A DNA stretch of 64,000 nt, taken from the IMG/VR virus record IMGVR_UViG_3300028388_004772, positions 1 to 64,000 of that record; one strand, 5' to 3'. Source of the stretch: a virus. Under the pieces are notes generated by a model. That model saw only the letters and a list, made by a program, of their open reading frames with translations, was not told the DNA's origin and did no database searches. Positions 41,406 to 57,000 of this stretch are shown one piece after another. Position numbers and translations under genes: made by a program. How positions within the stretch are numbered: position 1 is the stretch's first letter; each line of letters begins with the position of its first letter.

Positions 41406-41759
41406 TTACCTCGTGACAGATGGTGTAACTTGAGCACGACCTTCTAGTATACGTTCGATTATTGTATTGTCATCGCTATCAGTGTACGAAAGCTCAACAT
41501 CATACACGTATCTTCCCTTTGTCAGAGCATCCGTTTGGGTATTAGTTAACGAAAGGGTAACAATTCCTAAGGTAGGGGGCGTTGCAATAAGAGTGGTGAA
41601 ATCAGTGGTTTCGTCACTGTCACTATTATAGTTTTTCTTAAGCTTAGCTGCAACTAAGTAATTGGTGAGATCTTTGACGGAGCCATCTACATTGACTAAA
41701 TGCAATTCGATCGCTAGATCAGTTCCCTGATCTATTGTAAATTCTTCGTAGGTGGCCAT
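41406..41759 (-). CDS. Virion structural protein, 117 aa
   Basis: A 117-residue beta-sandwich-like protein (starts MATYEEFTIDQGTDLAIELHL; middle DLTNYLVAAKLKKNYNSD; end IIERILEGRAQVTPSVTR). I recall similar proteins in marine phages next to fibre genes, usually called structural. The 'IDQGTD' start followed by alternating hydrophobics resembles the N-terminal domain of BppU-type baseplate proteins, an inference only. It has a GAGG site and a late promoter 52 bases upstream, and marks the boundary between the fibre genes and the modification island. Confidence 0.7.
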   Translation of the reverse strand: MATYEEFTIDQGTDLAIELHLVNVDGSVKDLTNYLVAAKLKKNYNSDSDETTDFTTLIATPPTLGIVTLSLTNTQTDALTKGRYVYDVELSYTDSDDNTIIERILEGRAQVTPSVTR

Positions 41760-41829: not shown

Positions 41830-42390
41830 TTACATTTGAAGAAAAATGTCAACAGGAATAGCTAATCTTAATTGAGATGTATATTGTTTGACATAGTGAT
41901 ATACATAACCAGGAAAAATTAAAACATCTCCCGTCTGAGGTTTATGTTCTATGGAAGCAAAATCATTTATGAATGGCGGCATAAATCCTCTGTTAGCGTT
42001 GAAGCGAGGGTCTTGCATAACAATTTCTCCGCCTGAGTCTTGTTCTTCGGCCATTATATAAAATACAGAAACAAATTGAGATCCACTATGGTTATGAGTC
42101 GCCATATTGTATCCATTTGTAGTTCCTGTTAACCATGCTTTGAGCGAAAAGTCAATAGTGTCTAAATCAAAGTTATAAACGTCTTTGAAAAAGTCACTAT
42201 ACTTTTCAGTAGCTACTTCTTTCAATAATGGTGCAGTTTCTATTAGATTAGACGTCCAATCACCCTGAGGTTTAGTGACATCTTCAGTTGATAATACAGA
42301 AGTTGCAATTTGGTCACAAACTTGGTAATCGATAGATGTCTTATAGATTGGTGTAGACCAGGCTTTATTTAAGCCCGCATTCAGCTTCAT
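41830..42390 (-). CDS. 2-oxoglutarate/Fe(II) oxygenase-like protein (2OG-FeII_Oxy_5 type)
   Basis: A 186-residue protein with the look of the small phage 2OG oxygenases: N-terminal STPIYKTSI, then a double-stranded beta-helix core with ATHNHSGSQFVSVFYIMA (His 99/101), SGGEIVMQDPR, GDVLIFPGYVYHYVKQY (His 165) and Arg 175 for 2-oxoglutarate. Such enzymes hydroxylate amino-acid side chains or nucleotides. The first-half His-x-Asp motif is replaced by His-Asn-His, so the metal site is not textbook. It is the last gene of the island and overlaps the 130-residue gene. Confidence 0.8.
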   Translation of the reverse strand: MKLNAGLNKAWSTPIYKTSIDYQVCDQIATSVLSTEDVTKPQGDWTSNLIETAPLLKEVATEKYSDFFKDVYNFDLDTIDFSLKAWLTGTTNGYNMATHNHSGSQFVSVFYIMAEEQDSGGEIVMQDPRFNANRGFMPPFINDFASIEHKPQTGDVLIFPGYVYHYVKQYTSQLRLAIPVDIFLQM

Positions 42391-42757
42391 AGTATTTCCT
42401 TACATCTGGTACCATTCCTTTTGTTGGTATAATTGGTACTTGATCTAAAATAGCATCATATGTTTCAGGATCTAAGTCATAAGGTACGAAGTATGGATCG
42501 TTTCCGTAAAGAAGTTCGGGATCATTCAGTAACTGATAAAAGTCTTCTCCATAATCTTCACAAATCCATGTAGCATAACAAATAGCAACAAAATATGATT
42601 TAGCAGGGTAAATCCATTCTGAGACATTTTCATAAAAATGTTTTACTGCATCCCCTACAATATCTTGTGAGTTAATTATATTAACTTTATTAAGATCATC
42701 ATTATAGTCTTTGTTTAGACGATGATATATCTCTTGTTTGATTTTCCATAACTTCAT
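42365..42757 (-). CDS. Island protein of unknown function, 130 aa
   Basis: A 130-residue acidic, helical protein from the ATG at 42757 (MKLWKIKQEIYHRLNKDYND). A TTG 9 bases upstream is the alternative. It contains INSQDIVGDAVKHFYENV and a conserved-looking patch GEDFYQLLNDPELLYGNDPYF. It overlaps the end of the radical-SAM gene by 56 bases and the start of the oxygenase by 26, so all three are coupled. I recall related proteins in marine phages but no function. It could be a partner or recognition protein for the enzymes. Confidence 0.6.
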   Translation of the reverse strand: MKLWKIKQEIYHRLNKDYNDDLNKVNIINSQDIVGDAVKHFYENVSEWIYPAKSYFVAICYATWICEDYGEDFYQLLNDPELLYGNDPYFVPYDLDPETYDAILDQVPIIPTKGMVPDVRKYYEAECGLK

Positions 42758-43655
42758 ACCATTCAATTAGCCCCTTGTAACCATTACAGCTATTTTCCAA
42801 ATCACGAACATATCTATAATGTTCTGTTAAACATCTTCCTTTGTATCGACAGCTCTGACATATAGGACTAAGGTTGTTTTTTTCCTTTTGTGTCCATTCA
42901 ATATATTCATCAAAACTTTTTAGCTCTAAAAAATATTCCTTATCATTAATATCAAACTCAAGAACACCAAAGTTTCCATCCGGCGTGATATAAACATGGT
43001 CATCTGAAAACGCGTTATATTGACCATCAATACTTTCAATAATTTTAGATTCATTGACAAAGTTAAACTTTTTGTCAACTCCAGATTGAATCCATTTTTT
43101 AACAAATTCTTCAAAGTCTCTGTGTGTTATATTATAGGAGTTGGCTTGATTAATACTATATGGTTTGATTTCAACTGATTCAATTGACCCGCATACATTT
43201 AACTGGCTAATCATGCTGTCAACATTCATCTGCAATACAGCAGGGGATGCTAAGACTAATACAGCAATAGGTTTAGGTGAGAACATCATGTTTTGAAAAA
43301 CAAGCTCGTTTTTTTCTCGTGCATTAAAGTCATAAGATACTGAAAGATATACATCTTCATCAAAAAAATAATTATGAATCATAGACATATTCGTAATAAT
43401 ATTAATCTCACCATCATAATACTTTCTAATTACATTTTTATAATTGTAAAACACTTCTGGCTTAAGTAGACCTATCTCCCCACCATACATATCCAAATAT
43501 TTTATTTCTGGTACTTCTGATAACCTTTGATCTAATTTTTCAAAAGATAAGCGCCGGCGATCAGACAGCTGTTCTTCAGTCAAGTAACAAAAAGAACATC
43601 TAAAGTTACAATGATAACTAGGATTTAGTGATAATGTGACTGCTTTCGTCGACAT
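42702..43655 (-). CDS. Radical-SAM enzyme with C-terminal Cys cluster
   Basis: A 317-residue protein. The [4Fe-4S] site CNFRCSFC is at residues 16-23, followed by the GGE motif (MYGGE, ~58-60) for S-adenosylmethionine binding. The C-terminal part has CQSCRYKGRCLTEHY and a further Cys (NSCNGYK), suggesting a SPASM/Twitch-type auxiliary cluster as in peptide-modifying enzymes. The ATG has GAGGTG upstream, inside the preceding radical-SAM gene. The substrate is unknown; the neighbourhood points to the Cys-His-x-Ser protein at 50969. Confidence 0.88.
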   Translation of the reverse strand: MSTKAVTLSLNPSYHCNFRCSFCYLTEEQLSDRRRLSFEKLDQRLSEVPEIKYLDMYGGEIGLLKPEVFYNYKNVIRKYYDGEINIITNMSMIHNYFFDEDVYLSVSYDFNAREKNELVFQNMMFSPKPIAVLVLASPAVLQMNVDSMISQLNVCGSIESVEIKPYSINQANSYNITHRDFEEFVKKWIQSGVDKKFNFVNESKIIESIDGQYNAFSDDHVYITPDGNFGVLEFDINDKEYFLELKSFDEYIEWTQKEKNNLSPICQSCRYKGRCLTEHYRYVRDLENSCNGYKGLIEWYEVMENQTRDISSSKQRL

Positions 43656-44667
43656 ATGGGGTCACCTCAAGGTTCAGTCCATTGGCTTCTATAATAGATG
43701 GGGCAATAGATTTCATAAGTTTACAATGGTCTTCTACCATATTATGTAGCTTCTGATCCTTAATTGTCTTCTTACAACCATTACAGATCTGAAACATAGG
43801 ACAGGAATAACATGCTTGCTTCATTGAATTAAGATACAAGTCATCTCGCAGAGGATGAAACATCTCCCCATTCATCTCTTGTTCAAAGTTAATGGCTTTC
43901 TCTCTATCATCTCCAAACGCCCCGCATGAATAGTAATCACCTTCTGGCTGTAGGGTTCGAATACCTGAATCACAATCCCTATTCTGAGGACAGACGGTCT
44001 GTTCGCCTCTGAGTCTCCTGACCATCTGTTGAGTATTATGTTCCCAATCTGTCAGACCAGCCTTCCAGATCTCAACATACTTTTCATAAATCTTTGCAAG
44101 CATATAAGGTTCTGATTGAACACCAGAGGCCATTGCATAGTTGACCTTACACACCACACCCATCTTTTTAGCGAGCTCGACAGTTTTTAACACGGTGTCT
44201 TCATTGTCCTCTGTAATCACTGCGATGAATGAAGGACGATAACCAACCTTGTCCAACATCATATCAGAAACAGCCCAGAAGTCATCTTCTGTGAATACGG
44301 TATAGTCACCTTTGAGTCTTCCGTCTCCATATTGAAAAGATGTAGCGATTCCGACACGTGGATGTCTGAATAAATCTAACCACTTGCTCGGTTTCTTATA
44401 GAATGGCCACAGATTAGTAGTCAGTGAAATAGAGGTATCATAGCCTCTTTCATCTAAAAAATCAATGATTTTCCAATAATAACTTGGATCGATCATTAGC
44501 GGATCGCCACCATTGACGATGATGGTGTTTGTATTTGGATACCGATCAAGAAATCTGTACACGTGCTCTAGATCAAGCTCAGCTGCTTTATCTTCAACGA
44601 TATCTGTCGAGGAACAGAATGTGCATTTAAAATTACACAGCTCAGTTGGTTTAATAATTAAGTCCAT
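43618..44667 (-). CDS. Radical-SAM/SPASM-type enzyme
   Basis: A 349-residue protein. CNFKCTFC at residues 11-18 binds the catalytic cluster, and IIVNGGDPLM carries the GGD/GGE motif. The C-terminal cysteines (CPQNRDCDSG, YYSCGAFG, CYSCPMFQICNGCKK, DHCKLM) fit one or two auxiliary clusters, as in SPASM proteins that modify peptides. It overlaps the next radical-SAM gene by 38 bases and the oxygenase before it by 17. The full-length cysteine set suggests an active enzyme; the substrate is inferred only from context. Confidence 0.9.
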   Translation of the reverse strand: MDLIIKPTELCNFKCTFCSSTDIVEDKAAELDLEHVYRFLDRYPNTNTIIVNGGDPLMIDPSYYWKIIDFLDERGYDTSISLTTNLWPFYKKPSKWLDLFRHPRVGIATSFQYGDGRLKGDYTVFTEDDFWAVSDMMLDKVGYRPSFIAVITEDNEDTVLKTVELAKKMGVVCKVNYAMASGVQSEPYMLAKIYEKYVEIWKAGLTDWEHNTQQMVRRLRGEQTVCPQNRDCDSGIRTLQPEGDYYSCGAFGDDREKAINFEQEMNGEMFHPLRDDLYLNSMKQACYSCPMFQICNGCKKTIKDQKLHNMVEDHCKLMKSIAPSIIEANGLNLEVTPYVDESSHIITKS

Positions 44668-45118
44668 CTACCTTATACGCCAAATTAATAGCAACCCTTA
44701 CTTGATCTGTAGGATTTACTCTGTGTTTAACATGCGATGCTTGGCTAAGCATAACTAGTAAATGTTTTTTAGGCTGAACACACCCGACGACGCTATCATT
44801 ACACTGTATCATCAACTCTCCACCGTGGTCAACAGTAGTGAGATAATACAGAAAAAACGTGTTGTATCCCTCAACTAGATCATTATGCCATTCCATAGTC
44901 GAATGTTCTGATCCTACAAACATAGAGTATGTGTAGTCAGAATAACCTGGGAAATACGGAGCAATATAAGAGCTACCGACATAGCTACTCATATCGTTAA
45001 GATTAACATCAATCATACTAAATGAATTAGACTGCGGCATGTCGTATTGAGGTATCATTTTCTCAATACTTCTGTCTTCAAATGTCACAAATCCATGAGT
45101 AAAAAAGTTATCAATCAT
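44651..45118 (-). CDS. Small 2OG/Fe(II) oxygenase
   Basis: A 155-residue protein with the double-stranded beta-helix signature: MEWHND (His 78, Asp 80), HGGELMIQ, then SHVKHRV (His 129/132) and RVAINLAY with the 2-oxoglutarate Arg at 141. The metal triad His-x-Asp...His and the Arg are all present. This resembles prolyl/asparaginyl-hydroxylase-like phage proteins. It is one of four such genes in the island. Small size and no extra domain suggest it acts on an exposed side chain of a protein. Confidence 0.85.
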   Translation of the reverse strand: MIDNFFTHGFVTFEDRSIEKMIPQYDMPQSNSFSMIDVNLNDMSSYVGSSYIAPYFPGYSDYTYSMFVGSEHSTMEWHNDLVEGYNTFFLYYLTTVDHGGELMIQCNDSVVGCVQPKKHLLVMLSQASHVKHRVNPTDQVRVAINLAYKVDGLNY

Positions 45119-45133
45119 ATAGTAAAGTAATTT

Positions 45134-45664
45134 TTATCTACCTAAACCAGGAATAAAAAATTCAAAAGTTAACATACGGCGTTCTCCACCTTTATGAGTT
45201 GCTTTATGTTTAAACGCGTGTGTTTGATTTACCCATACGAATTGGTTTGGTTTGTGCGAAATACTAAATTCTTCAAAACCATTAGAAAAATCGATTGTAT
45301 TTCCGTATGGGTCTCCATCGTCTAAATAAATTAAAAAATTAGTATTCAAAGGTCTTTTGACTTCTTCGTAATCGCTATGCCACAGTGAAGACTTGTAGTC
45401 AACGCCAGACCACATACCATTAGTTATAAATTCAAATTCATTCGACACTTGCTTAATGTATTTTTCTGCAACGACTTCTGTAATTTTATCTAATAGTTCT
45501 TGAGATTCTGGAGCATAGACCATTTCTTCTTTCAAGTCTCGCTCTTTGTCTTCGCTTACACAAGTTGGAAACTCGTGTCCTTCGAATAAAGATACAACAT
45601 CCATACAAAATTGATCAGAATAGTATCCTTTTACAAAAAAATCTGTTAATTCTTGCTTTTCCAT
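45134..45664 (-). CDS. 2OG/Fe(II) oxygenase-like protein
   Basis: A 176-residue protein. SSLWHSDYEE gives His 96 and Asp 98. NFLIYLDDGD is the usual strand, GNTIDFSNG corresponds to the 'GG.L' strand, and HAFKHKATHKGGERRMLTFEFF supplies the distal His (149, 153 or 157) and Arg (162/163). The ending F.FFIPG is typical of this family. It is followed 15 bases later by a second oxygenase of the same size class. A TATAAACA sequence, one base off the late consensus, lies in its leader (near 45690-45697). Confidence 0.85.
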   Translation of the reverse strand: MEKQELTDFFVKGYYSDQFCMDVVSLFEGHEFPTCVSEDKERDLKEEMVYAPESQELLDKITEVVAEKYIKQVSNEFEFITNGMWSGVDYKSSLWHSDYEEVKRPLNTNFLIYLDDGDPYGNTIDFSNGFEEFSISHKPNQFVWVNQTHAFKHKATHKGGERRMLTFEFFIPGLGR

Positions 45665-45705
45665 TATTGATTATCCTGCTGTAATCTATGTGTTTATATA
45701 TGCTA

Positions 45706-46194
45706 TTAAGACCAACCAACACTCAATGTCTTTCTTGGTACTGATCCAAAGTATGGACATATCTTGTGTAAAAGAGACGCGTCAAAAGTCACAATTGTTC
45801 CTTTCTCAGGTTGAATTCTAATTTTGTTATTGGGAAAATTAAATAAGTTGTGATTAAAATATATGTCAAGTTCTCCACCAACCCATTTACTAGTATCATA
45901 GTCGAGAAATAATAAAGTTATCCACTCAGCCTCGTTTTTGTCGTCATGTAACTCCCACAATATACAATCTCGCGAATTTTTATCATAAGTTGGAACACTA
46001 ATAGTATGCGCAAGCACTGGATCCATTAATTTATGAGTTAACCCATATACTTCAGCTTGCAACAATTTTAAAATATAGTGATCACTGAGCTTTTGTAAAA
46101 CGTTATGCCCTTCTCCTTCTTTGAAAGGAAGACATAGTATATCGTCGAGCATCTGCTGAGGTATTGCTTTATGTGATATATTATATTTTTGCAT
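45706..46194 (-). CDS. 2OG/Fe(II) oxygenase-like protein
   Basis: A 162-residue protein. WELHDDKNEAEW gives His 83 and Asp 85, LLFLDYDTSKWVGGELDIYF matches the central strands, and LLHKICPYFGSVPRKTLSVGW gives His 143 and Arg 154. The set of metal and 2-oxoglutarate ligands is complete. It overlaps the end of the cobalamin-type radical-SAM gene by 14 bases. Sequence similarity to the two neighbours is low outside the motifs, suggesting different substrates or sites. Confidence 0.85.
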   Translation of the reverse strand: MQKYNISHKAIPQQMLDDILCLPFKEGEGHNVLQKLSDHYILKLLQAEVYGLTHKLMDPVLAHTISVPTYDKNSRDCILWELHDDKNEAEWITLLFLDYDTSKWVGGELDIYFNHNLFNFPNNKIRIQPEKGTIVTFDASLLHKICPYFGSVPRKTLSVGWS

Positions 46195-47749
46195 CGATAT
46201 AATTCTCTAGAATGTCTCGGTTTTCATTCAATATCTTTTGTCCTCTATATTGAATATTGTCACCATTAGGTAAAGTATCCATACTAAATCGATTCTGAGA
46301 TAATAGCGAAGATTTAAGAATAGTGCATAGTGCTATAAATTCTGGAAGTTGATTAAGCCCATTCCATAATGCTTTAATATATGGCGATATTTTTTTAAAA
46401 GACATATACTTGGCCATCCATGTTTTGTCTAATCCTTTACATATCTTATTCATTAGAGTCATTTCAATATAATCGTCTATTGAATACGAATAACATTCGA
46501 CTATTGTTTCATATTCAAGTTTAAGATCTTTATAGATCGTATTATCTAAATCGTCTTGGTGGCCAAAGTTAGGATCCATCTCGTTTGTAACAACGATGGT
46601 CTTGATACCATACTTGTTTTTATACTCTGGGTCTGCCGCTTCTGTAGCTGGCAATATCATATACGGATATCTATTATCGTCCCAATAATTTAGATGATGA
46701 TAAAGATCATATTCTTCGTAAAAATCGCTAATAGTTGAGCCAGGCATTCCCATAATTAACTCAAGATCTATGTAGAAATCTGATGGATCTGTCGCTTCAT
46801 TTTGTATCTCCCGAGCTCTATCTAAGACGTAATATATCTGATCTTTTTTAATATCAATTCGTTTAGCCACTTCTCTGGCTTCGTCTGATATAGACTGAAT
46901 ACTAATCGATATTTGTCTTTTAGACATACCCAATTGAACCATACGTCTTAGTATGTCCAACTTTCTCTCAATATCGAGTGTTTTTAATATTGACAATGAA
47001 TCTCCAACACTCAAATTATATTTTGCAAACAAAGATATTACTTCAAAATCTCTTTCTTTAAACATCCCAGTGTTTGCGTCAGTAAGATCTACGTACATTA
47101 ATTCAAACTGACTTAAGTACCGAAGCTCATCTTCAAATATATTTAAAGGCTTTTTAATTACCTTTATTCCTGTACCACCACCCCATTCGCAATAAGTGCA
47201 CTTAAAAGGGCATCCTCTAGTAGTCTCACCTGAAATTATGATCCGTTCAAAGATGTCAAGGTTTTCTTTAAAATAATAAAAGACTTTTCGAAAATAAGAG
47301 TCGCATCTTTTATATACATTTGTATAGCCGTAAACAAAATTAGTTTTTTTTGGAAGCGAAGGATCAATATAGCGATCAATATAGTTTGTTATAAACAACT
47401 CCCCATATGTTAATGGGTCTGCAGCTACAGTATAGTTTTTAACTATGTCAGAATTGAGATGAGGTCCACCGACTACTGTGATCACATTAGGATCAAGTTG
47501 AGATCTAATATTTTCATTAATTGAATAGTTCCACACATAGTTGCAGAACAACACAATATCGCAGTCTCTTAGATTATCAAGAATCATGTCATAAGTCATA
47601 TGATCCCATTGGTATACTGGTTCGACCCATTCAACTCTATCGTTAAATGCACCATGATCTTCATAGTATGTTTTAAACAACATCCAACTATAATTGAACT
47701 CACTTCGAGAAGCATTACTTGCTGGATTTATGTAGCCGATTTTTAGCAT
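46181..47749 (-). CDS. Cobalamin-binding-type radical-SAM enzyme
   Basis: A 522-residue protein, the largest enzyme of the island. The first ~130 residues resemble the Rossmann-like B12-binding domain of class B radical-SAM proteins (IGYINPASN, DIVLFCNYVWNYSI, VITVVGGPHLNSD), though the His of the DxHxxG motif is not evident. The core has TTRGCPFKCTYCEWGGG with Cys 180, 184 and 187. Further strands MYVDLTDANTGMF, ISISIQSIS and DLELIMGMPGST are typical of the TIM barrel. Such enzymes often methylate unreactive carbons. The C-terminal 150 residues are helical and of unknown role. Confidence 0.88.
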   Translation of the reverse strand: MLKIGYINPASNASRSEFNYSWMLFKTYYEDHGAFNDRVEWVEPVYQWDHMTYDMILDNLRDCDIVLFCNYVWNYSINENIRSQLDPNVITVVGGPHLNSDIVKNYTVAADPLTYGELFITNYIDRYIDPSLPKKTNFVYGYTNVYKRCDSYFRKVFYYFKENLDIFERIIISGETTRGCPFKCTYCEWGGGTGIKVIKKPLNIFEDELRYLSQFELMYVDLTDANTGMFKERDFEVISLFAKYNLSVGDSLSILKTLDIERKLDILRRMVQLGMSKRQISISIQSISDEAREVAKRIDIKKDQIYYVLDRAREIQNEATDPSDFYIDLELIMGMPGSTISDFYEEYDLYHHLNYWDDNRYPYMILPATEAADPEYKNKYGIKTIVVTNEMDPNFGHQDDLDNTIYKDLKLEYETIVECYSYSIDDYIEMTLMNKICKGLDKTWMAKYMSFKKISPYIKALWNGLNQLPEFIALCTILKSSLLSQNRFSMDTLPNGDNIQYRGQKILNENRDILENYIDAKI

Positions 47750-48261
47750 TTTATTCTAAACACTCTACCGTTCTCAACAACCTTAGGCCCATCATATACC
47801 GAAGACGCGTAGGGGGATTCCATAATATTTGTATTTAATTCTTTAGCTCTTTCTCGCATTGTTTCTACAGTTGGAATCAAATCACCTTTTTTACAAAATG
47901 TGTCAATGAGTAGTTTATACATTACTTTTTGCTCTTTGCGGCTAAAGTAATGTATAAAATTGCCATTGATTTGAATGTTGTTAACTATATTGCCTTCAAA
48001 ACTAATCCACATAATCTCAAGTTCGTCAAGATGTGTTTTTGGCAAACCATTAAATTTTTCAGTTTTTTCTTCAATCGCATTTGTAATATTCTTGTCGCTG
48101 AAAAAACGATCATGAATTGGGAGAGAACAGATGTAAATTTTATTAATTGGTGTTTTAAAATATATGCATGGCGGCACGCCCTGTGGTATATAATCAAAAC
48201 ACACTTCTGTGACTGTGTACGGAAACTTTATTCCGTTTTCAATATCTGTTTGTGAAAACAT
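47743..48261 (-). CDS. Island protein of unknown function, 172 aa
   Basis: A 172-residue protein with mixed alpha/beta character: DIENGIKFPYTVTEVCFDYIP, PINKIYICSLPIHDRFF, DELEIMWISFEGNIVNNI. It lies between two radical-SAM genes with one-base spacing on one side and a 7-base overlap on the other. Nothing identifies a catalytic site. A peptide-recognition or scaffold role in the island is possible. No family is recognised. Confidence 0.6.
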   Translation of the reverse strand: MFSQTDIENGIKFPYTVTEVCFDYIPQGVPPCIYFKTPINKIYICSLPIHDRFFSDKNITNAIEEKTEKFNGLPKTHLDELEIMWISFEGNIVNNIQINGNFIHYFSRKEQKVMYKLLIDTFCKKGDLIPTVETMRERAKELNTNIMESPYASSVYDGPKVVENGRVFRIKC

Positions 48262-48262
48262 A

Positions 48263-49279
48263 TTATGCTCGAGCTATAATGCCACTTGCTGCATCAATGT
48301 ATCTGAATGTTTCTTTATAGACGCACTCTTCCATTTCTTGTCTATATCTATAATCGTGTTGCATAAAGCAGCCTAGTGTGCACCGATTAAAATATTCACA
48401 CGTAAGACATCCATACTTTTCCATGAAACTTTCTTCGATGGGTGAGTTATCCATTGGTTGTATGTCATGATCATACATCACTTTGTCTTCAGGCGATTGT
48501 ACAAGGTTACCACACATACACATTGTATTATCTTCTAATATAAGCTTACTGCTTCTGCAACTAATGTAGTTCGTTTGCCTTTCAATCCACTCAGCAATAG
48601 GGCTAAGTTTAGGGTAGTTGTTTATAAAGTATTTGAATACAGCATATAGCTCATGATCAGTTGGTGCTTGGTGGTGTGCTGTTTTGTCTGGCATGTAGTA
48701 GTCAGCGTACAGATAGAATCCATCTCTATAGAATTGATCTAAGTTTTTATCTCCTTTAAGAAATGCTTTGATGTTCTGTTTAGTCAACAAAAGACCAATA
48801 CCATCCAAATGCTCTTGAAAGTAGTATAAGTTTTTCTTGAACAATGCTAAGTCTTTTTTATTGAATCTACCAGAGGGATCGTAGCTAGTAAAAAGAGTAG
48901 AAGGAATTGCTTTTAATAGAGTTTCTATTAGGTCAATTTTAGTTGTGACGAGATTTGTTACCCAATTGACAGACGTATTAATGTTATATTTCTCACCAAG
49001 GTCAAAAATCCCTTGAGCAAGTTTTATATAATCTTGGTTGAGCTTTTCATTATAGATTGAGTCAGCGAATATTTCTCCACCCATAATATTAAAAACTACA
49101 GATGATTTTTTCTCTTCTAGAAGAAACTGCTCAATTGGCTCAAGCTTTTCAAGAACCGTATCGATCCCTGTCAGATTACCATGATCTTGCCAACAAAACG
49201 AGCAAGAGAGATTACAAAACTCAAAAAGATGAATGGTGTACTCTTGTTGGTGATCTCTCTTTGCATCTAATAAAATCAT
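48263..49279 (-). CDS. Radical-SAM enzyme with C-terminal Cys cluster
   Basis: A 338-residue protein. CNLSCSFC at residues 22-29 and NIMGGEIF (~66-70) are the cluster and SAM motifs. The C-terminal cysteines (YISCRSSKL, MCMCGNLV, GCLTCEYFNRCTLGCFMQH, ECVYKE) resemble a SPASM-type auxiliary site. The start at 49279 shares bases with the stop of the 353-residue gene (GAGATGA). The arrangement is like peptide maturases that act on ribosomal peptides; the substrate is not shown by sequence. Confidence 0.88.
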   Translation of the reverse strand: MILLDAKRDHQQEYTIHLFEFCNLSCSFCWQDHGNLTGIDTVLEKLEPIEQFLLEEKKSSVVFNIMGGEIFADSIYNEKLNQDYIKLAQGIFDLGEKYNINTSVNWVTNLVTTKIDLIETLLKAIPSTLFTSYDPSGRFNKKDLALFKKNLYYFQEHLDGIGLLLTKQNIKAFLKGDKNLDQFYRDGFYLYADYYMPDKTAHHQAPTDHELYAVFKYFINNYPKLSPIAEWIERQTNYISCRSSKLILEDNTMCMCGNLVQSPEDKVMYDHDIQPMDNSPIEESFMEKYGCLTCEYFNRCTLGCFMQHDYRYRQEMEECVYKETFRYIDAASGIIARA

Positions 49280-50337
49280 CTCAAACTATAATTTTTCAGC
49301 TTCTCAGGATTTGTTCTATATAAAGTTCTGCAGTACGAAATAAAGATTGTATTGATCTTACCCATTCTACCTATATCGGTAGAACTAACATGAGTAGCAT
49401 CGGTCTTACATTCTAAAAACTCTTTGATCACCTTGTTCAGTTGAGTGTCGGTAAGCTCACCTTTCATGATTGAATTCAAATATGGAATCTCATCGTCAAG
49501 TGTTTTAAACATCGCGATTGAAGATTGTGCTGATCCAGTGTTTTCTAATTTTGAACAAACATCGATTGCTGCGTTTACTATTTTCTTCGCTTGAGTGTAG
49601 GTAAGCCCTTCTAGTGTAAACTTGCCGGCCGAGCCCGCTATGTAAGGACTCTTATTAACGTCCTCAAAGCTTTTATACGTGGATGATTCAAATATTTCTT
49701 TAAAGAAATTTAAAGACGAATAATTAGAAACATCTAATAATTCGCCTGTGTTGCCAAGAATCTTCTGTAGCTCATCATCTAGAATGTTTAACTCCATGTG
49801 TTGCATCAAACACATCAATCCGTCATCAATTTCTCTACGCATGAACGTAGCAAATGTTTTCTTAAGATTAGATTTGTATCGTGTGTCACCATTTACTTGA
49901 CTAGCAACCATAAATTCTAGCGAAGGAGTATATTGGTAACTTGACAGGTCCAGCTCCGGAGCTTCATCCCAATAATTAATAAGAAAATCTTTCATGCCTT
50001 CACATGATTCATTATACAATTCTCGGTGCTTTACGATACACTCAGCATATATCACCCAATCGTCAGCACTCATATTCGTAGCTGATTTATACCACGTGGC
50101 AGCGATCTTCGCAAATGATTCTATATCAGCATGAATAGCTCTCTTATCATTAGCCAACAGCATATGTAAAAATAAATTTTCTGCATCTTCAAAATCAAAT
50201 GATGGAGCAATGAATTGCTCCTCAGGTTTCAAATCTTCTTTAATAGTATCTGACCAATCAAAATATGCACCGCCAATCTTAGTGTTGTACAACACATCAG
50301 GTGTGTCTAAATAAATTCTATTAAACAGGTGTAGCAT
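49276..50337 (-). CDS. Island protein of unknown function, 353 aa
   Basis: A 353-residue protein from the ATG at 50337 (MLHLFNRIYLDTPDVLYN), which overlaps the stop of the 210-residue gene (CTGATG). It is mainly helical and acidic, with a His/Cys-containing central part (GLMCLMQHMELNILDDE) and a C-terminal helix-rich region. I recall proteins with a similar MLHLFN start in marine phages next to a Cys-His-rich protein, but cannot verify it. No catalytic motif is seen. With the 210-residue protein and the Cys-His-x-Ser protein it forms a gene trio. Confidence 0.62.
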   Translation of the reverse strand: MLHLFNRIYLDTPDVLYNTKIGGAYFDWSDTIKEDLKPEEQFIAPSFDFEDAENLFLHMLLANDKRAIHADIESFAKIAATWYKSATNMSADDWVIYAECIVKHRELYNESCEGMKDFLINYWDEAPELDLSSYQYTPSLEFMVASQVNGDTRYKSNLKKTFATFMRREIDDGLMCLMQHMELNILDDELQKILGNTGELLDVSNYSSLNFFKEIFESSTYKSFEDVNKSPYIAGSAGKFTLEGLTYTQAKKIVNAAIDVCSKLENTGSAQSSIAMFKTLDDEIPYLNSIMKGELTDTQLNKVIKEFLECKTDATHVSSTDIGRMGKINTIFISYCRTLYRTNPEKLKNYSLR

Positions 50338-50969
50338 CAGTTTGCCTCTTGTACTTCTTGAATATTGCCGGATGCAATTGCCCATGTAAGGAGAAACATT
50401 GGGTTATTCTCATTAGCCCAGTAAGAAAATAAATTATTTCCTTTAAACATGTAATCGTTAAAGTAACTTGAAAAATATGTAAGATTATTTGGATTTACTT
50501 TTTTGAACAACAAATAAAAATCTTTATTCTTAACCAAACTTATGAAGTTTATTCCTGTTAAATCTTTTGTATCATCTTCTGGAAATTGTTTAACCCAATT
50601 TTGCATTTCTTCAGAATTAACTGAATATATGTTAAAAAGAGTTAATGAATCGATTTTTCTTTCCCAAGATAACAATTCTTCTTTATTATCTACATCTTCA
50701 CCCATCTTTAATTTGCCTAACATAGCTATGACGACAGTTTCAAGAGACGGAATGTTTACTAACACTTGAGTTTTTAAATAATCCCCAACAAACTCTTGAT
50801 CAAAGTTAATTACATCACATGGAAGATCTAAATTACCTAAGTACGTTAATAATCTATCACCCCGTAACTCAGAATTTTGATAATCAATAATAAAGTATGT
50901 TTCTTTATCTTCAAAATACTTTTTCAAATCATCAATTGCAATTGGTGCAGTTGTATCAATAACATTCAT
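50337..50969 (-). CDS. Island protein of unknown function, 210 aa
   Basis: A 210-residue protein beginning MNVIDTTAPIAIDDLKKYFED and then YFIIDYQNSELRGDRLLTYLGNLDLP. Its ATG overlaps the stop of the Cys-His-x-Ser gene as TAATG, so the two are strictly coupled. The start 'DDLKKYFEDK..YFIIDY' followed by 'LLTYLGNLDLPCDV' looks like an alpha/beta fold. The second half is helical and aromatic (YFSSYFNDYMFKGNNLFSYW). It could be the chaperone or recognition partner of the preceding protein. No family is recognised. Confidence 0.62.
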   Translation of the reverse strand: MNVIDTTAPIAIDDLKKYFEDKETYFIIDYQNSELRGDRLLTYLGNLDLPCDVINFDQEFVGDYLKTQVLVNIPSLETVVIAMLGKLKMGEDVDNKEELLSWERKIDSLTLFNIYSVNSEEMQNWVKQFPEDDTKDLTGINFISLVKNKDFYLLFKKVNPNNLTYFSSYFNDYMFKGNNLFSYWANENNPMFLLTWAIASGNIQEVQEAN

Positions 50970-51568
50970 TATCTTCTACCTCTTGAAGAGTGACACGAGG
51001 AGTGGCAGCTAGCGTGACAAACATTTCGTGTTAAAGTAATAGTGTTATCTCTTTCGCTGTTATATGCAGCTCTAAAATTACTAAAAAGAGTTTCCAAATT
51101 ATCATCGTCAATTATCTCGCCTGCGGAAACGCTAGCATTATCTGGATCGGTGATAGTTTGTAAATAATCATCTGATAAGTATGCAACTTGGGTTTGGTCA
51201 AACACAATACCAAACGTACCAATAGGTCCTTTGTCCGTATTCGATGTGCCAGATACTCCAGTAACGTTTAATCTAGCTCTAACTTTACGTATGGATGTAT
51301 ACCGATTTGTTTCTGTAACAAGTGCATTGTAAATTGCATTAGCATCTATCAATTCACTTCCGTCAGCTTTAATATCATCCCCATCAATGCTAATTGATTT
51401 TCCGTCTGAATTGCCACCCATAAATGCATCAGTAAGCACAGTAACACCTGAATACGTAGGATTTGTATTTGTAGCCCATACAATCCCACCATTTGCATGA
51501 TCCACTACAAATTCTTTGAATCGATTCACTATATTCTGGGCTGTGACTGGATTAGTTAATGTAGCCAT
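50969..51568 (-). CDS. Structural-type protein with C-terminal Cys-His-x-Ser repeats; putative modification substrate
   Basis: A 199-residue protein. Residues 1-180 are beta/alpha structural-looking (NPVTAQNIVNRFKEFVVDH, GVTVLTDAFMGG, a DSDG-like turn set). Residues 184-195 are three perfect four-residue repeats CHAS-CHSS-CHSS, followed by the basic end RGRR. Cys falls at 184, 188 and 192. The His-x-Ser triplets recall the HxsA peptides modified by radical-SAM enzymes, here with an added Cys. The gene overlaps the radical-SAM/SPASM gene upstream by 17 bases and lies 90 bases after a late promoter match. It may be a virion protein whose tail is chemically modified. Confidence 0.78.
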   Translation of the reverse strand: MATLTNPVTAQNIVNRFKEFVVDHANGGIVWATNTNPTYSGVTVLTDAFMGGNSDGKSISIDGDDIKADGSELIDANAIYNALVTETNRYTSIRKVRARLNVTGVSGTSNTDKGPIGTFGIVFDQTQVAYLSDDYLQTITDPDNASVSAGEIIDDDNLETLFSNFRAAYNSERDNTITLTRNVCHASCHSSCHSSRGRR

Positions 51569-52571
51569 TTATTTCTTCATCCATCTTTATCATTAATAAC
51601 TTTGGAGCCGGACATACATCATCTTCCCATTCAAGCTGATGGCAGTCTCCTTTACAGTATTTATACATGTTACAGGTGTAACACCTTGGATCTCTTGTTA
51701 GCTCTTGGGCAATGATTTCACACCGTTTTGGCTTATTAAGCACATTTAACCCATCGTCAATATGTCCATACACTTCTTCAGGAGCAGCGTTTGGGCAACC
51801 TGATATAGACCCATCGGCATTAATTGTAAATAATTTCTGTTCACAATCACGACAAAAAGTACCAGCTGAGTTAAAATTGTCTTCGAACTTTGTATATATG
51901 TTTTCTAAAAAGTCATTTCTAAACCAAGCTCTTGCATCATAGCGTTTAGTTTGTTCATACATTTTTAAAAACCAGCGCTGGAGCTCCAGATTAGTAGGAA
52001 AAATTATTGGATTTTTTCTTGCTGATCCGTTTAAGGTTAATCTTTCGAGTGCTAATTCCTGCACTCCTAGTTTTTTTACAAATTTAAGAAGATCTATTGG
52101 TTCCATATCTATAACTGATCTACTAAGAGAAACAAACAATTTAATTGTATAACCGCGGTCAAGCAGCAATTTGATATTGTGTTCCCACAGATCGATTTGT
52201 TTTTTATTCTCAAATCGAATGTCTGAATCCCACGACGTTCCAATACGTTTATTTAACGCATTATCCATAAAGTCTAATTTATCATCAGTAAGCTTAAAAA
52301 CAAGATTTGTTGTAGCTCCGTAGCTAAATCCATTAGCTTTTGTGCGATGATAAAAATCCCACATGCTTTCTATAGAGGCGAGAAATGGTTCACCTCCATG
52401 AAACTCAAAATGGCCTGTCCTTCCACTTGTTAACAAATTGCACCAATCTGCAGTTTTTTTAGAATCAAAAAATATCTTTCTACCATTCTTTCCAGAAGTA
52501 AAGCAGTGACTACAATTAAGATTACACGTCTCAGTAGTTTTAATGTAAAACATCAGGTCATTTTTAATCAT
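51552..52571 (-). CDS. Radical-SAM/SPASM maturase-like enzyme
   Basis: A 339-residue protein. CNLNCSHC at residues 16-23 and FHGGEP (58-62) are the cluster and SAM motifs. Nine C-terminal cysteines follow in SPASM-like order: 240, 243, 259, 284, 297, 300, 306, 310 and 320 (CYTCNMYKYCKGDCHQLEW). This is the pattern of the anaerobic sulfatase-maturase and peptide-maturase group. It lies directly upstream of the Cys-His-x-Ser protein, with coding overlap, making it the best candidate to modify that protein. Confidence 0.9.
   Translation of the reverse strand: MIKNDLMFYIKTTETCNLNCSHCFTSGKNGRKIFFDSKKTADWCNLLTSGRTGHFEFHGGEPFLASIESMWDFYHRTKANGFSYGATTNLVFKLTDDKLDFMDNALNKRIGTSWDSDIRFENKKQIDLWEHNIKLLLDRGYTIKLFVSLSRSVIDMEPIDLLKFVKKLGVQELALERLTLNGSARKNPIIFPTNLELQRWFLKMYEQTKRYDARAWFRNDFLENIYTKFEDNFNSAGTFCRDCEQKLFTINADGSISGCPNAAPEEVYGHIDDGLNVLNKPKRCEIIAQELTRDPRCYTCNMYKYCKGDCHQLEWEDDVCPAPKLLMIKMDEEINGYIN
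51658..51665 (-). promoter_or_regulatory. T4-type late promoter match inside the radical-SAM gene
   Basis: Exact TATAAATA on the minus strand near the 3' end of the SPASM maturase gene, 90 bases before the ATG of the Cys-His-x-Ser protein. It would give the substrate extra late transcription over its enzyme. Confidence 0.45.
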
Positions 52572-52948
52572 TCGTCACCGATCGACAACATTACAGAATC
52601 ATACTTATTGATTGCTTCATGAGGTGTATTGGCTGGTATAAGTAGAGTGTCTGTAATCTCTAACTCTTTACCATTTATTATCATTGTCTTCGTCCCCGAT
52701 AGCACTTTTAATTGTACATCATATGGGTCAATATGACAACGAAAACTTACAGCATTTTTTGGGGAAATGTATAGGTGGACAGTCTTGGGACAGTACTCTG
52801 TATAGTACGACTCTAATCCCTCAACCTTTATTGTCTTTTTATTTTCAGCAATATAATAACCAACCTGATCTAGTGTTATCTCATGATCAAGTTGGTTCTC
52901 ATCAATTATGTAAGCCTTAGTACCATACTTTAAAATTTCAGATAACAT
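52568..52948 (-). CDS. Cupin-fold protein
   Basis: A 126-residue protein with cupin character: a strand VSFRCHIDPYDVQLKVLSGTKTMIING (His and Asp in the first motif), then TLLIPANTPHEAIN in the second motif with His. The His residues fit an Fe/Mn site, but the full four-ligand set is not certain. Its end overlaps the radical-SAM start by 4 bases and its start overlaps the upstream virion gene. It may be an oxygenase-like or binding member of the modification island. Confidence 0.75.
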   Translation of the reverse strand: MLSEILKYGTKAYIIDENQLDHEITLDQVGYYIAENKKTIKVEGLESYYTEYCPKTVHLYISPKNAVSFRCHIDPYDVQLKVLSGTKTMIINGKELEITDTLLIPANTPHEAINKYDSVMLSIGDE

Positions 52949-53829
52949 TCAACTATTTTTACTTCCTCAAAATTATTGCTTTGTAAAGCAATGCCAACCA
53001 TTGGACCAGTACCTGTTACTGATGCGAGACCAGGAGAACAAGCGTATACCACATCTCCTTTCGCTACAGTCCCCTTGATTCTGACAGGTACCCTTCCGAC
53101 AAGGGCTACTGATTGACCCTCAGAAGAAGAATTCATTATATATGCGGGATTTGTTGAAATGACCCCAGTAACCTCTTTACCAGAAGTCCATGGCTCCATT
53201 TCATCATCTTTGTTGGTACCTATTGTCATTACAGTCCCTGGGGGCTGAATGGTCTCCGTTGTATATTTCTCGGCTACGTCAGCATATTGTGCTTGAGTAG
53301 CAGTAGCGGTAATTATATTGGCACTAAAATTGCTCGAATCATCACGAAATACAATTGTATTTGCAGTATTGTCCGCAGTAGCATTTGATGTAACAGTAAA
53401 TGTTCCTCCGTTCGAGCTAACGCTACCAGAAATACCATTACCTGATGTTGCACCTACAGCTACGTAGTTGCCAATTGTAAACTCACCTGTAATTGAATCA
53501 TAATTTAGCCCATTACCCGAGGAAAATAAGCTTCTAGTACTTTGCGCATCTACAGAGCCTGTAAGAGTAAATATACCAGAACCGCTATTGTAAGATAAAG
53601 AAACGCCAGTAGCTTGGTCATCCACGCTAATCGATTGTCTTGATATAGTAGTAAGTTCACCTGAATCATCAAAGGCGCTGACTATATTTCTTACTGTGTT
53701 AATAGCATCAACAACATTACTATCACCTGTCACTAAATTATCGACATTTCCAACATCATTAGAAATAGTATTTGTCTTAGTGACAAATACCGACATAGTG
53801 TCTGACAGGTTAACATTAGTTATAGCCAT
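52930..53829 (-). CDS. Virion fibre-like protein with a conserved C-terminal beta domain, 299 aa
   Basis: A 299-residue protein. The N-terminal half has fibre-type beta repeats (LSYNSGSGIFTLTG, LNYDSITGEFTIGNYVAVG). The C-terminal ~120 residues (QYADVAEKYTTETIQPPGTVM, VTGVISTNPAYIMNS, VALVGRVPVRIKGTVAKGDVVY) form a widespread phage tail-fibre end domain, related in pattern to the Peptidase_G2 type that can self-cleave. I do not see proof of self-cleavage. It overlaps the cupin gene by 19 bases. Confidence 0.75.
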   Translation of the reverse strand: MAITNVNLSDTMSVFVTKTNTISNDVGNVDNLVTGDSNVVDAINTVRNIVSAFDDSGELTTISRQSISVDDQATGVSLSYNSGSGIFTLTGSVDAQSTRSLFSSGNGLNYDSITGEFTIGNYVAVGATSGNGISGSVSSNGGTFTVTSNATADNTANTIVFRDDSSNFSANIITATATQAQYADVAEKYTTETIQPPGTVMTIGTNKDDEMEPWTSGKEVTGVISTNPAYIMNSSSEGQSVALVGRVPVRIKGTVAKGDVVYACSPGLASVTGTGPMVGIALQSNNFEEVKIVECYLKF

Positions 53830-53835
53830 TTTAGA

Positions 53836-54069
53836 TTACCTATTTTTCTCGACTAATTGTACCAATAAATCTTTGATTTCTTTTATCTCGTCTTTAAGAT
53901 CTTCGACCTCATTGGCGAGCGACAGCTGCTGTTCTTTTTGCTGCTTCATTAATTGTTTTCTCTTTCGGGCCGCTTCAATTTCAGCCTTGTTTGTATTGAT
54001 GACAACATTTGTTTCTGTGTCTCTTACAAAACCCGAAAGATTTTCCACTTCCTTATACTGCAAGTGCAA
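53836..54069 (-). CDS. Coiled-coil virion accessory protein, 77 aa
   Basis: A 77-residue frame starting with TTG (TTG CAC TTG CAG); a second TTG two codons later may be the true start, since GAGGG is better spaced for it. Sequence LSGFVRDTETNVVINTNKAEIEAARKRK is followed by a long coiled coil (LANEVEDLKDEIKEIKDLLVQLV). I recall similar short proteins next to the large structural gene in marine phages. It probably forms a trimeric or dimeric connector. It overlaps the 3' end of the 1749-residue gene by 17 bases. Confidence 0.65.
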   Translation of the reverse strand: MHLQYKEVENLSGFVRDTETNVVINTNKAEIEAARKRKQLMKQQKEQQLSLANEVEDLKDEIKEIKDLLVQLVEKNR

Positions 54070-57000
54070 TGGCCCTCAAGTCCTTCAATACTGGGATGTA
54101 TGAAGTACTTGTGGATTCCATTACAATCTTAATCTGGAAGGATGTGAATGCTGGCAATTGGCCACCTTCACCACCAATCAAGTACTCATACTCTCTGAAC
54201 ACCAATACCTCATCAGAAGGCACAGTTGTAGTAGCGCTCGCGAGCTGCCAACTAGTATCCCTAATTGTCTCTGCGTCAGTAGATGTTCTGTAGTAAACTT
54301 TAAAGTTACCAGCAGATGGTCTGTACGCTGCAAAGAACAACTTAATACCAACAGCCTCTTCTGCCAACGTTGCAACAGTTGTAATGTGCTTCGAAGCTGA
54401 TGAGCCATTGTATGGATCGGTTTCATCTACAATCGAAATTGGTACATTGAAACCAGATGTGTTGGACGAATCTTGCTTATCAATAGAGTTCTCAATAAAT
54501 GTCATCGAAGCTCTTTGAAGATCAAGAATTGGAGATACTTTAGTATCGCTTGTTGACAAAGTCAACTTAATCGTAGCAGCATCTGCAACCTGGTTCTTCG
54601 AGTTAGGAATTAGCTTAGGAGCCTGTGTTCCATTCACCTCATTAATAATGATTGGGGTGAAAGAAGATGCCACACTATAAGCTGAGTTGGTTGCCTCGTT
54701 ACGATCAGTACCCCAACTTGCTCCACTTGTCAACTTAATACTACCAGAAATACCAGTATTATTAGGTGTTAGGGTTTGTACCGTTGTGAAGTACTCATTG
54801 AACATGAACTGCTGAGTAGACTTAACATTTGTTCCACCCGTGCGAATTGATCCTGTTGCTGCTGAATCAGCTGCAAAAGTATATCCAGTCCAGTCAGTAT
54901 TAATGATTGTTCTATCACCAAGCATCGACGCACCTTTAATTCCAGCATATGTCGATCCTGAATCTAAGCCATACAAAGCCACTGTATCATTCTTAACAAA
55001 TCCATGGCCTTCATGGAACACACGAATAGTCGTAGAACCTGAATCAGTTAGAATTGGATCACTACCGAGCAAATACAATGGTGGTTGTGCATTGGTTAGG
55101 TAAGCATCACCTGAGCTGCTAAATTCAGCACGGTTAATTCTAAACATCAAATCTCTATTCTGATCTGGTGTCCAGGTTGTACCGTTTTGTGATCTATACA
55201 ATGAACCAAGAGTTGGTTGCTTCGATACTCTTGCATCCGTAGATCCAAGAACAAAATCATATGTCTTGGCAACATAGACTGTGTAGTCTGTAGTCTCTGC
55301 TGCAACCACTATTGCATACTCTTGACCAGGGGCCAGGTAAATTGGCTCGTCAAATGTAAATGTTGTTGGAGCTGCTCTTACACTTTCAAGGTCTTCTAAA
55401 TCAGCAGGAATTGATACTTCAGTTGGTGATAGATATTTGACAGCACCTGGTAACGGATATGCTAAAGGTGTGCCGTTCTCTACTCCACGAATTTGAACCT
55501 GTACAGGTTGACCTCCAGTTGGAGCCTTTGTTCTAAAGAATACATCAACACTTGTTACAAAGATACCAGATGGGTTCTCTGTTTGTGATACAAAGAATGA
55601 TTGGGCAACTGGGTCCCAGAAACAGAAAATCGATTTCTTCTTAACAACAATTGTCTGAACATCAATCTCTCGTGTTACTTTAAGTGTTCTTTCTCTTACT
55701 TCCAATACACCAGTTGATGTAAAGATGTCTTGACACAATGATGTTGCGTTGTCATCATTATCAGCTGTGATATCAAGAAGTTTGAGAATCTTTGATCCAG
55801 TTCTGAATTTGATTGCATTAGTAGAAGGAATGAAGAATGATCCTTCAATTTTACCCTCAGCATCTGAGATCAAACGACTCTTACCCTCAGGATGCTCAGT
55901 TGCTCTTTGATAGATATTACCATAATCTTCAGTAGTAGAACTGTATCGTACAAATGATTCTTCTCGAACCCAATCAGCAACACTAACACCATTAAAGAAG
56001 GCAAAATGTTCTGTGTTCGGTTTTAATCCTTGAGCCTTAAAGTATACTTTCTTAGATCTCATGTAAGGAATAAGGAATGTTTCTATTACTCTGTTGCCAA
56101 CCTGCTCAATAATAATATCATCTCTGACTACAGCTTCGTTTGATGCAATTGATACGCTTGGTTGATCATCAATCAATGCATTGACGGCAGCTGCTGTGGC
56201 AGAGCTTGCAGCTGCAAGACTAGCTGCAGTGAGATAATTACCTGCCATTAGCTGACCGAGTGCAGTTGTGGAAAGAGAGAATCCAGTACTTGCAGCTCCA
56301 ACACCAGTAGCAGCTCCTCCTGCAGTTCCTCCACCAAGTAGTCCAAAACCACCCGTTTTTGCTGCTATTACCAAGGCAACTGCTATACCAAACCAGCCAC
56401 CAAAGGTTCTTTGAACAACCGTTCGAGTACCCACATTTCTCTTCTTGACACCACCATCAATTAGAACGTCCGGTAAGAATGCTTGCTCAATCCAGTCGTC
56501 CGATGCTGGGGAAAGCTGAAGAGTACCAGTGTTGATAATAACTTCAAATGGGTTAACATTAATTGCTTCGTTACACAAATCTTGATATGAAAACTGAGTT
56601 TCTGTGTACGGAAGAGTAACAAGATCACCTGTCTTATTAGTTGTCTGACTGACGCCATCTGAATCGAAGAACAGCCGCACATTACCATAGTAAATCGCTG
56701 GCGTAATAACTTTGGCCGATGGATCCAAAGCAGCTCTATAGCTAACATTGTCCACATCAGAAAAAACAAAATCCTTGAAGTTATCAGCAAAGAATCCTGA
56801 CTTAGTTCTTTGCAATCCGTTTGAATCTAGTACAGATAATGTCGATGTATTCAATTCAAGCAAACTCAGAGAGGTAACATCTGCTAACTTGTTTATTCTT
56901 TTTTCAAGTGAACCGATGTCTTTCATCGTATATCTTCTATTATTAATGAAAGATAGGTTTACATCAGAATCACTCAAAGTGTATGGAGGAAGAGTTATAT

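Follow-up and report, generated by a model that had tools for sequence, protein, structure and literature searches.

The described systems that most resemble the locus treated here belong to the ribosomally synthesized and post-translationally modified peptides (RiPPs) and to a group of protein hydroxylases. In the Hxs system, the peptide HxsA carries H-x-S repeats and is matured by the paired SPASM-type radical S-adenosylmethionine (rSAM) enzymes HxsB and HxsC, with HxsD as a further component; in the dynobactin and darobactin pathways, a SPASM rSAM enzyme acts on a C-terminal core, the chemistry of which involves Trp, Asn, His, and Tyr; proteusins and other long-leader RiPPs combine a large structured N-terminal part with a flexible C-terminal core and multienzyme tailoring; and the hydroxylases MINA53, NO66, and YcfD are characterized by a JmjC_2 domain (PF08007), an HxD...H motif, and a Lys 15 residues past the first His. 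Here we describe a block of 15 genes at positions 41830–52948 of a 64,000-nt window (the whole stretch of DNA analysed, that is, positions 1–64000 of the 141,247-base IMG/VR virus record IMGVR_UViG_3300028388_004772), in which five rSAM enzymes (rSAM_A to rSAM_D and a B12-type enzyme) and several 2-oxoglutarate (2OG)-Fe(II) oxygenase-like proteins accompany PREC, a protein ending in repeated Cys-His-x-Ser (CHxS) units. We read this block, with a probability of about 0.68, as a phage RiPP-like maturation cluster that modifies a virion protein, associated with the tail fibre, at its C-terminus.

The block recalls each of these systems and differs from all of them. It shares with Hxs the H-x-S repeats in the putative target and the paired SPASM rSAMs, but the profile matches are weak (rSAM_D to HxsB 27.4 bits, rSAM_B to HxsC 28.5 bits, far under the cut-offs of 370 and 268), PREC and the unknowns U133 and U172 fall in no Hxs family, and the phage block has a Cys ahead of each H-x-S, four conserved rSAMs together with oxygenases, and a phage, tail-fibre context. 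DynA (NF041298) is the best curated match of rSAM_B (E 3e-14), yet the 52.7 bits reached (cut-off 450), like the 32 bits for DarE (cut-off 650), place the block outside the dynobactin/darobactin families, from which it also departs in its CHxS core, its long folded carrier, and the lack of any exporter recognised in the block. PREC gave no Pfam match and fits neither the NHLP (nitrile-hydratase-like) nor the Nif11 leaders in NCBIfam, and its conservation is reversed with respect to the usual long-leader RiPPs, the core being constant and the carrier variable. The phage cupin, which shares all three features listed above for MINA53, NO66, and YcfD, is much smaller than these hydroxylases, forms a single barrel, and is matched also by plain cupins, by some of them better. 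The system works like a RiPP pathway, yet falls outside each curated RiPP class tested (Hxs, proteusin/Nif11, DynA, and DarE). As for phage literature, gp70–gp82 of FLC6 and gp70–gp82 of S13 are the same clusters, the genes of which are listed as single enzymes in the accessible portions of the respective reports, where precursor, core motif, and pathway go unrecognised (PMC8066314, PMC11898562), and the accessible part of the RP12/RP31 report allows a likeness of rSAM genes by gene names only (PMC5468394). A search of the literature on phage RiPP and rSAM systems, with limited coverage of subscription journals and of bioRxiv, found no description of the system.

A near-invariant tail on a divergent carrier

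PREC (199 aa) ends in NVCHASCHSSCHSSRGRR followed by the stop codon, so that its CHxS tail is exact, and its last 16 residues represent the consensus C-H-x-S-C-H-x-[S/N]-C-H-x-S-R-x-R-R-COOH. The same ending is found in over 100 viral contigs and also in jumbo phages that have been cultured. Queries with PREC reached 31 viral contigs; the jumbo phages, which infect Burkholderia, Agrobacterium, Sinorhizobium, and Pseudomonas, were reached through rSAM and U210 queries, and their carriers are only 23–27% identical to PREC yet all end in CHxSCHxSCHx[SA]RxRR, the C-terminus of S13 gp72 reading ...CHSSCHTSCHGSRGRR. It is owing to this divergence of the carriers that a tblastn search of the phage collection with PREC gave zero matches even at E 10.

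A DNA pattern in which only the Cys, His, and Arg codons and the stop were fixed, with every other position free, matched at least 119 viral stretches, nearly all in the same gene context. Among the matches listed there are 94 distinct DNA cores, in which Cys, His, and Arg are invariant while their synonymous codons vary, and in which Ser4 is kept in 91/94, Ser or Asn at position 8 in 93/94, and Ser12 in 86/94; the Ser positions use both TCN and AGY codons. Constant residues written in varied synonymous codons show that selection acts on the protein, and this variation, together with the recovery of the same gene context by a pattern with free x positions, excludes a chance origin of the tail. 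The AlphaFold model of PREC, built from 56 sequences (the window and viral contigs), reaches a predicted local distance difference test (pLDDT) score of 88.9 and a predicted TM-score (pTM) of 0.83, with low confidence in the last 15–20 residues, and the core thus appears, in the model, to be disordered on a folded carrier. A BFVD search retrieved the homologue from Atu_ph07 along with a few phage proteins that are uncharacterised; the structure model of U210 has a pLDDT of 93.

Several precursors depart from this plan. On two contigs (L054:4201-5569 and L135), a Gly_rich_2 domain of about 250 aa, a domain familiar from phage tail tips, interrupts the precursor gene and splits it into an N-terminal PREC-Gly-rich open reading frame (ORF) and a 140-aa ORF bearing the core. 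A 232-kb contig (L077) encodes a 257-aa CHxS protein with a bare match to PREC; seven or more radical-SAM genes lie behind it.

Organization of the gene block

The 15 tightly packed ORFs, all on the minus strand, run from 52948 down to 41830; 11 of the 14 junctions overlap and the other gaps measure 1, 15, and 41 nt, in keeping with the original prediction that nearly all genes overlap or abut. Pfam, NCBIfam, and PHROG profile searches likewise bore out, item by item, the families listed there: five rSAMs, four 2OG-Fe(II) oxygenase-like proteins, one JmjC-like cupin, four unknowns, and one CHxS-tailed protein. The features, with the two flanking genes, are as follows:

52930–53829, minus strand: tail-fibre-like protein with a Peptidase_G2/IMC-type C-terminus (PF11962, 29.8 bits; phrog_19602, tail fiber)
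52568–52948, minus strand: JmjC/cupin oxygenase-like protein (PF08007 JmjC_2, 28.7 bits, cut-off 22)
51552–52571, minus strand: rSAM_D, with SPASM-type C-terminal Cys (PF04055; TIGR04085, 31.7 bits; 3 + 8 conserved Cys)
50969–51568, minus strand: PREC, putative carrier/precursor, 199 aa, folded domain about 1–184 (phrog_35144; alignment; AlphaFold)
50972–51019, minus strand: core codons for CHASCHSSCHSSRGRR, the C-terminal end of PREC (stop codon at 50969–50971)
50337–50969, minus strand: U210, conserved partner right after PREC, with a 1-nt overlap (phrog_20767)
49276–50385, minus strand: U369, conserved unknown (kept in 29/32 full loci)
48263–49279, minus strand: rSAM_C, with 7 conserved auxiliary Cys (phrog_1802, 7e-44; own clade)
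47743–48261, minus strand: U172, in an accessory slot (no family in family searches, 1 member only)
46181–47749, minus strand: B12-type radical SAM protein, KedN5-like, accessory (NF033712, 91 bits, cut-off 700)
45706–46194, minus strand: 2OG-Fe(II) oxygenase, accessory (PF13640, 29.1 bits)
45134–45664, minus strand: 2OG-Fe(II) oxygenase-like protein, accessory (phrog_19592; HxD...H...R motif)
44651–45118, minus strand: 2OG-Fe(II) oxygenase-like protein, accessory (PF13640, 26.7 bits, borderline to the cut-off of 27)
43618–44667, minus strand: rSAM_B, full SPASM, 8 auxiliary Cys (PF04055, 39 bits; NF041298, 3e-14, below cut-off; 4k36)
42702–43655, minus strand: rSAM_A, 4 auxiliary Cys, twitch-like (PF04055, 29.5 bits; own clade)
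42365–42766, minus strand: U133, small conserved unknown (phrog_20737, 2e-45)
41830–42390, minus strand: OXY1, 2OG-Fe(II) oxygenase, last gene of the block (PF13759, 44.4 bits)
41406–41759, minus strand: U117, tail-fibre assembly-like neighbour, non-enzyme (phrog_3304, L-shaped tail fiber protein assembly)

Four of the five rSAMs pass the Pfam Radical_SAM profile (PF04055) with 29.5, 39, 36.7, and 29.5 bits (cut-off 29.5), and the fifth, rSAM_C, scores 25 bits, slightly under it. Two of the four oxygenases lie over their Pfam cut-offs, one is borderline, and one is assigned by motif only: the product of 45134–45664 is without a Pfam match, yet its hidden Markov model family keeps H96xD98...H153...R162. 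Among the four unknowns, U210 and U133 belong to PHROG families without a function, and the true start of U369 is probably the Met at residue 17, as suggested by the conservation of M17 in the alignment.

Linkage and conservation across phages

The tail and the rSAM genes are linked in both directions. In a census from the side of the core, where tail loci were picked mostly by DNA pattern alone and some contigs count twice, rSAM genes lie near the core in 149/158 loci; of the remaining nine, most are clipped so that little sequence follows the core downstream, although a 5.4-kb contig (L045) has room there and shows no rSAM. When loci were selected by rSAM_D, 75/80 held the core, and the other five end within PREC or directly after rSAM_D, so that all 75 testable loci hold it. 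Nearly every locus thus pairs a ribosomal precursor that has a defined core with rSAM genes next to it.

The conserved order is cupin, rSAM_D, PREC, U210, U369, rSAM_C, variable accessory genes, rSAM_B, rSAM_A, U133, and OXY1. Full flanks are available for 32 loci, 30 of which have at least four rSAMs; in this set, rSAM_A occurs in 32, rSAM_C in 31, rSAM_D and rSAM_B in 30 each, and the B12 rSAM in 14, while the partners U210, cupin, U369, and U133 are present in 31, 29, 29, and 27, any oxygenase in 29, and OXY1 in 25. The co-occurrence check attached to the original prediction therefore came out strongly in its favour, with precursor, four orthologous rSAMs, cupin, and U210 found together, in the same order, far beyond T4-like phages. 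In an rSAM tree whose sequences were labelled by gene position only, clusters formed by position (28/28, 28/29, 27/27, and 27/28, with support of 0.99, 0.98, none for the third, and 1.0), which argues for four old, distinct enzymes that have stayed together alongside a variable decorating set. The RiPP-type label given to the block earlier is, by in-silico logic, well supported by the combination of a near-invariant C-terminal core, its apparent disorder on a folded carrier, and its linkage to SPASM-type rSAMs.

The accessory region is diverse. U172 has no counterpart among the relatives compared; the slot after rSAM_C often holds a family of about 200 aa that looks acetyltransferase-like to the eye (L017:13481-14098, L029:13346-13933, L030:13324-13932), for which the two members tested gave no Pfam match; and some clusters hold an extra accessory radical-SAM family with an NGCQFNCTGC motif (L016:10179-11255, L030:14955-16013). 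A search of bacterial genomes found matches in five contigs, two of which (L043 and L044) encode tail-fibre-like giants, making a phage origin likely for them. A 77.9-kb contig from a Bdellovibrionaceae metagenome-assembled genome (L042) carries two rSAM_D-like genes around the precursor, with flanks that match unknown PHROGs only.

Enzymes and predicted chemistry

All four conserved rSAMs combine CxxxCxxC with 4–8 auxiliary Cys, the SPASM/twitch arrangement, the alignments showing eight conserved auxiliary Cys in rSAM_B, eight in rSAM_D, seven in rSAM_C, and four in rSAM_A. The SPASM profile TIGR04085 gives 31.7 bits for rSAM_D and 25.9 bits for rSAM_B (cut-off 27). The closest solved structures for rSAM_B and rSAM_D are anaerobic sulfatase-maturating enzymes, with the rSAM protein 8vpo ranking first for rSAM_D; sulfatase maturases act on Cys or Ser within a C/SxPxR-type motif, a loose parallel to CHxS...R. 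The resemblance of the B12 rSAM to KedN5, given its 91 bits against a curated 700, is one of working alike only. A viperin-like antiviral role of the rSAMs was rejected, as the matches were only generic and sub-threshold.

The cupin combines a score over the JmjC_2 gathering threshold with the facial triad: H72-x-D74...H110 is invariant in 26 aligned sequences, K87 nearly so, and JmjC_2 is assigned to 20 of 26 relatives. The Lys 15 residues past the first His has the spacing known from the protein hydroxylases FIH and MINA53. Its profile matches the MINA53 histidyl hydroxylase 2xdv at 2e-5, and non-hydroxylase cupins score better, so that oxygenase activity is a prediction. The enzyme set as a whole points to candidate crosslinks or oxidations at Cys, His, or Ser, accompanied by hydroxylation.

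Tail-fibre neighbourhood

The tail-fibre-like gene at 52930–53829 sits immediately upstream of the block and overlaps the cupin gene, and U117 lies just downstream. Across loci, the first gene upstream encodes, in 82/118 cases, a C-terminal tail-fibre domain of the Peptidase_G2/IMC type, and one 151-kb phage record (G001:C1:27127-57000; L257/L258) has two CHxS clusters of different type, each behind an IMC-type tail fibre, with a single precursor of 195 aa in one and two tandem precursors of 128 aa in the other; both observations place the gene in a tail-fibre locus. The extra precursors of this record had been considered as lone copies far from the enzymes, an idea rejected when the DNA revealed the second cluster. 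In Atu_ph07, gp170, the counterpart of PREC, is the first coding sequence (CDS) of a reported virion cluster, 170–215 (PMC6102473); all three clusters reported there span exactly 46 CDS, so this border is suggestive only and was dropped as proof of presence in the virion. The earlier claim that the target is a virion protein is supported by the tail-fibre neighbourhood, and PREC is most simply read as a protein that is associated with the tail fibre and would carry a constant, modified tip.

Proposed mechanism and alternative explanations

In the mechanism that we propose, the enzymes of the block would form one pathway, with PREC as the folded carrier and its last 16 residues (CHxSCHx[S/N]CHxSRxRR-COOH) as the modification target. 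The four conserved rSAMs (D, C, and B SPASM-like, A twitch-like) would make irreversible bonds at the Cys/His/Ser units, tail residues (His, Ser/Asn, or Arg) may be hydroxylated by the JmjC-like cupin and the other 2OG oxygenases, and lineage-specific enzymes (the B12 rSAM as a putative methylase and the extra oxygenases) could add further decoration, with U210, U369, and U133 recognising or presenting the substrate. No protease or exporter for leader removal was recognised in the block with Pfam, NCBIfam, and PHROGs, although such genes are not universal in RiPP clusters; we propose from this that the modified protein stays on its carrier and is not released. Modified PREC would then be mounted on the virion beside the adjacent tail fibre, where its constant chemical tip may help the phage to attach to the Gram-negative envelope or to enter there. 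The broader proposition, that a widespread and old phage system builds one constant structure (a crosslinked or hydroxylated CHxS triplet ending in Arg-x-Arg-Arg), by which unrelated phages would gain a non-standard tip that helps them contact or cross the envelope, RiPP chemistry thus serving virion maturation, we hold to be evenly balanced. If true, the virions of many phages bear an enzyme-made, non-standard chemical tip that would escape receptor studies relying on sequence or on recombinant fibres, and the core offers a defined, testable substrate for new rSAM chemistry and possibly a shared envelope target, with cultured phages among those involved.

Several points weigh against modification of a virion tail. 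The case for modification follows in-silico logic; the target of the rSAMs might, in principle, lie elsewhere, the tail being only a recognition or metal site; an RRE (PqqD-like) domain and a protease, both common in RiPP clusters, were not found; PREC and U210 have no fold match in the PDB, so that structure supports neither a virion role nor substrate recognition; and in jumbo phages, as in S13, the upstream gene encodes a virion protein of another type.

Among the alternatives, we regard as unlikely that the tail is a RiPP core that, once cut off, acts against bacteria or in host takeover, either free or injected, with the carrier as a disposable leader: the core does sit at the C-terminus, as in bacteriocins, and rSAM_B and rSAM_D resemble the maturases of antibacterial peptides (DynA, DarE), if with low scores, but the cluster has no recognised protease, exporter, or immunity gene, the block goes together with a tail-fibre gene, and the product is nearly invariant among very different phages, unlike bacteriocin cores. 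It is improbable that the tail is a metal-binding (for example, iron) tip on a tail protein, in the sense of the "Ferrojan Horse" idea of phage tails that bear iron, with the enzymes tuning or protecting it; although repeated Cys/His triplets fit a metal site, the cultured hosts found are all Gram-negative, and iron-binding domains in phage tails have been put forward before (PMC11705849), such a tip on its own accounts neither for four conserved rSAMs with oxygenases nor for the conserved Ser and R-x-R-R. A metal-binding tip and a modified tail are mutually compatible.

The enzymes' target is itself inferred, and many small molecules are substrates of 2OG oxygenases and of rSAMs, so the block might act on host proteins or small molecules, with PREC as a neighbouring structural or scaffold protein that recruits the enzymes through its tail. 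Core and rSAM_D are linked almost perfectly in both directions, and the tail hardly varies; both facts are most simply explained if the tail is the substrate, and they make this alternative decidedly improbable. The tail was also considered as a c-type haem site rather than an rSAM substrate, CHASCH and CHSSCH being readable as CX3CH; this reading, to which we give hardly any credence, was rejected, as no cytochrome maturation genes were recognised in the block, there are no distal ligands, the tail has only 16 residues, and the linked enzymes are of the rSAM/SPASM and 2OG types.

Further virion gene in the window

Upstream of the tail-fibre-like gene, positions 54053–59302 encode a 1749-aa VrlC-like virion protein, which is closest to those of Phage C48C1 and of the Pelagibacter phages Mosig and HTVC008M (31–38% identity).

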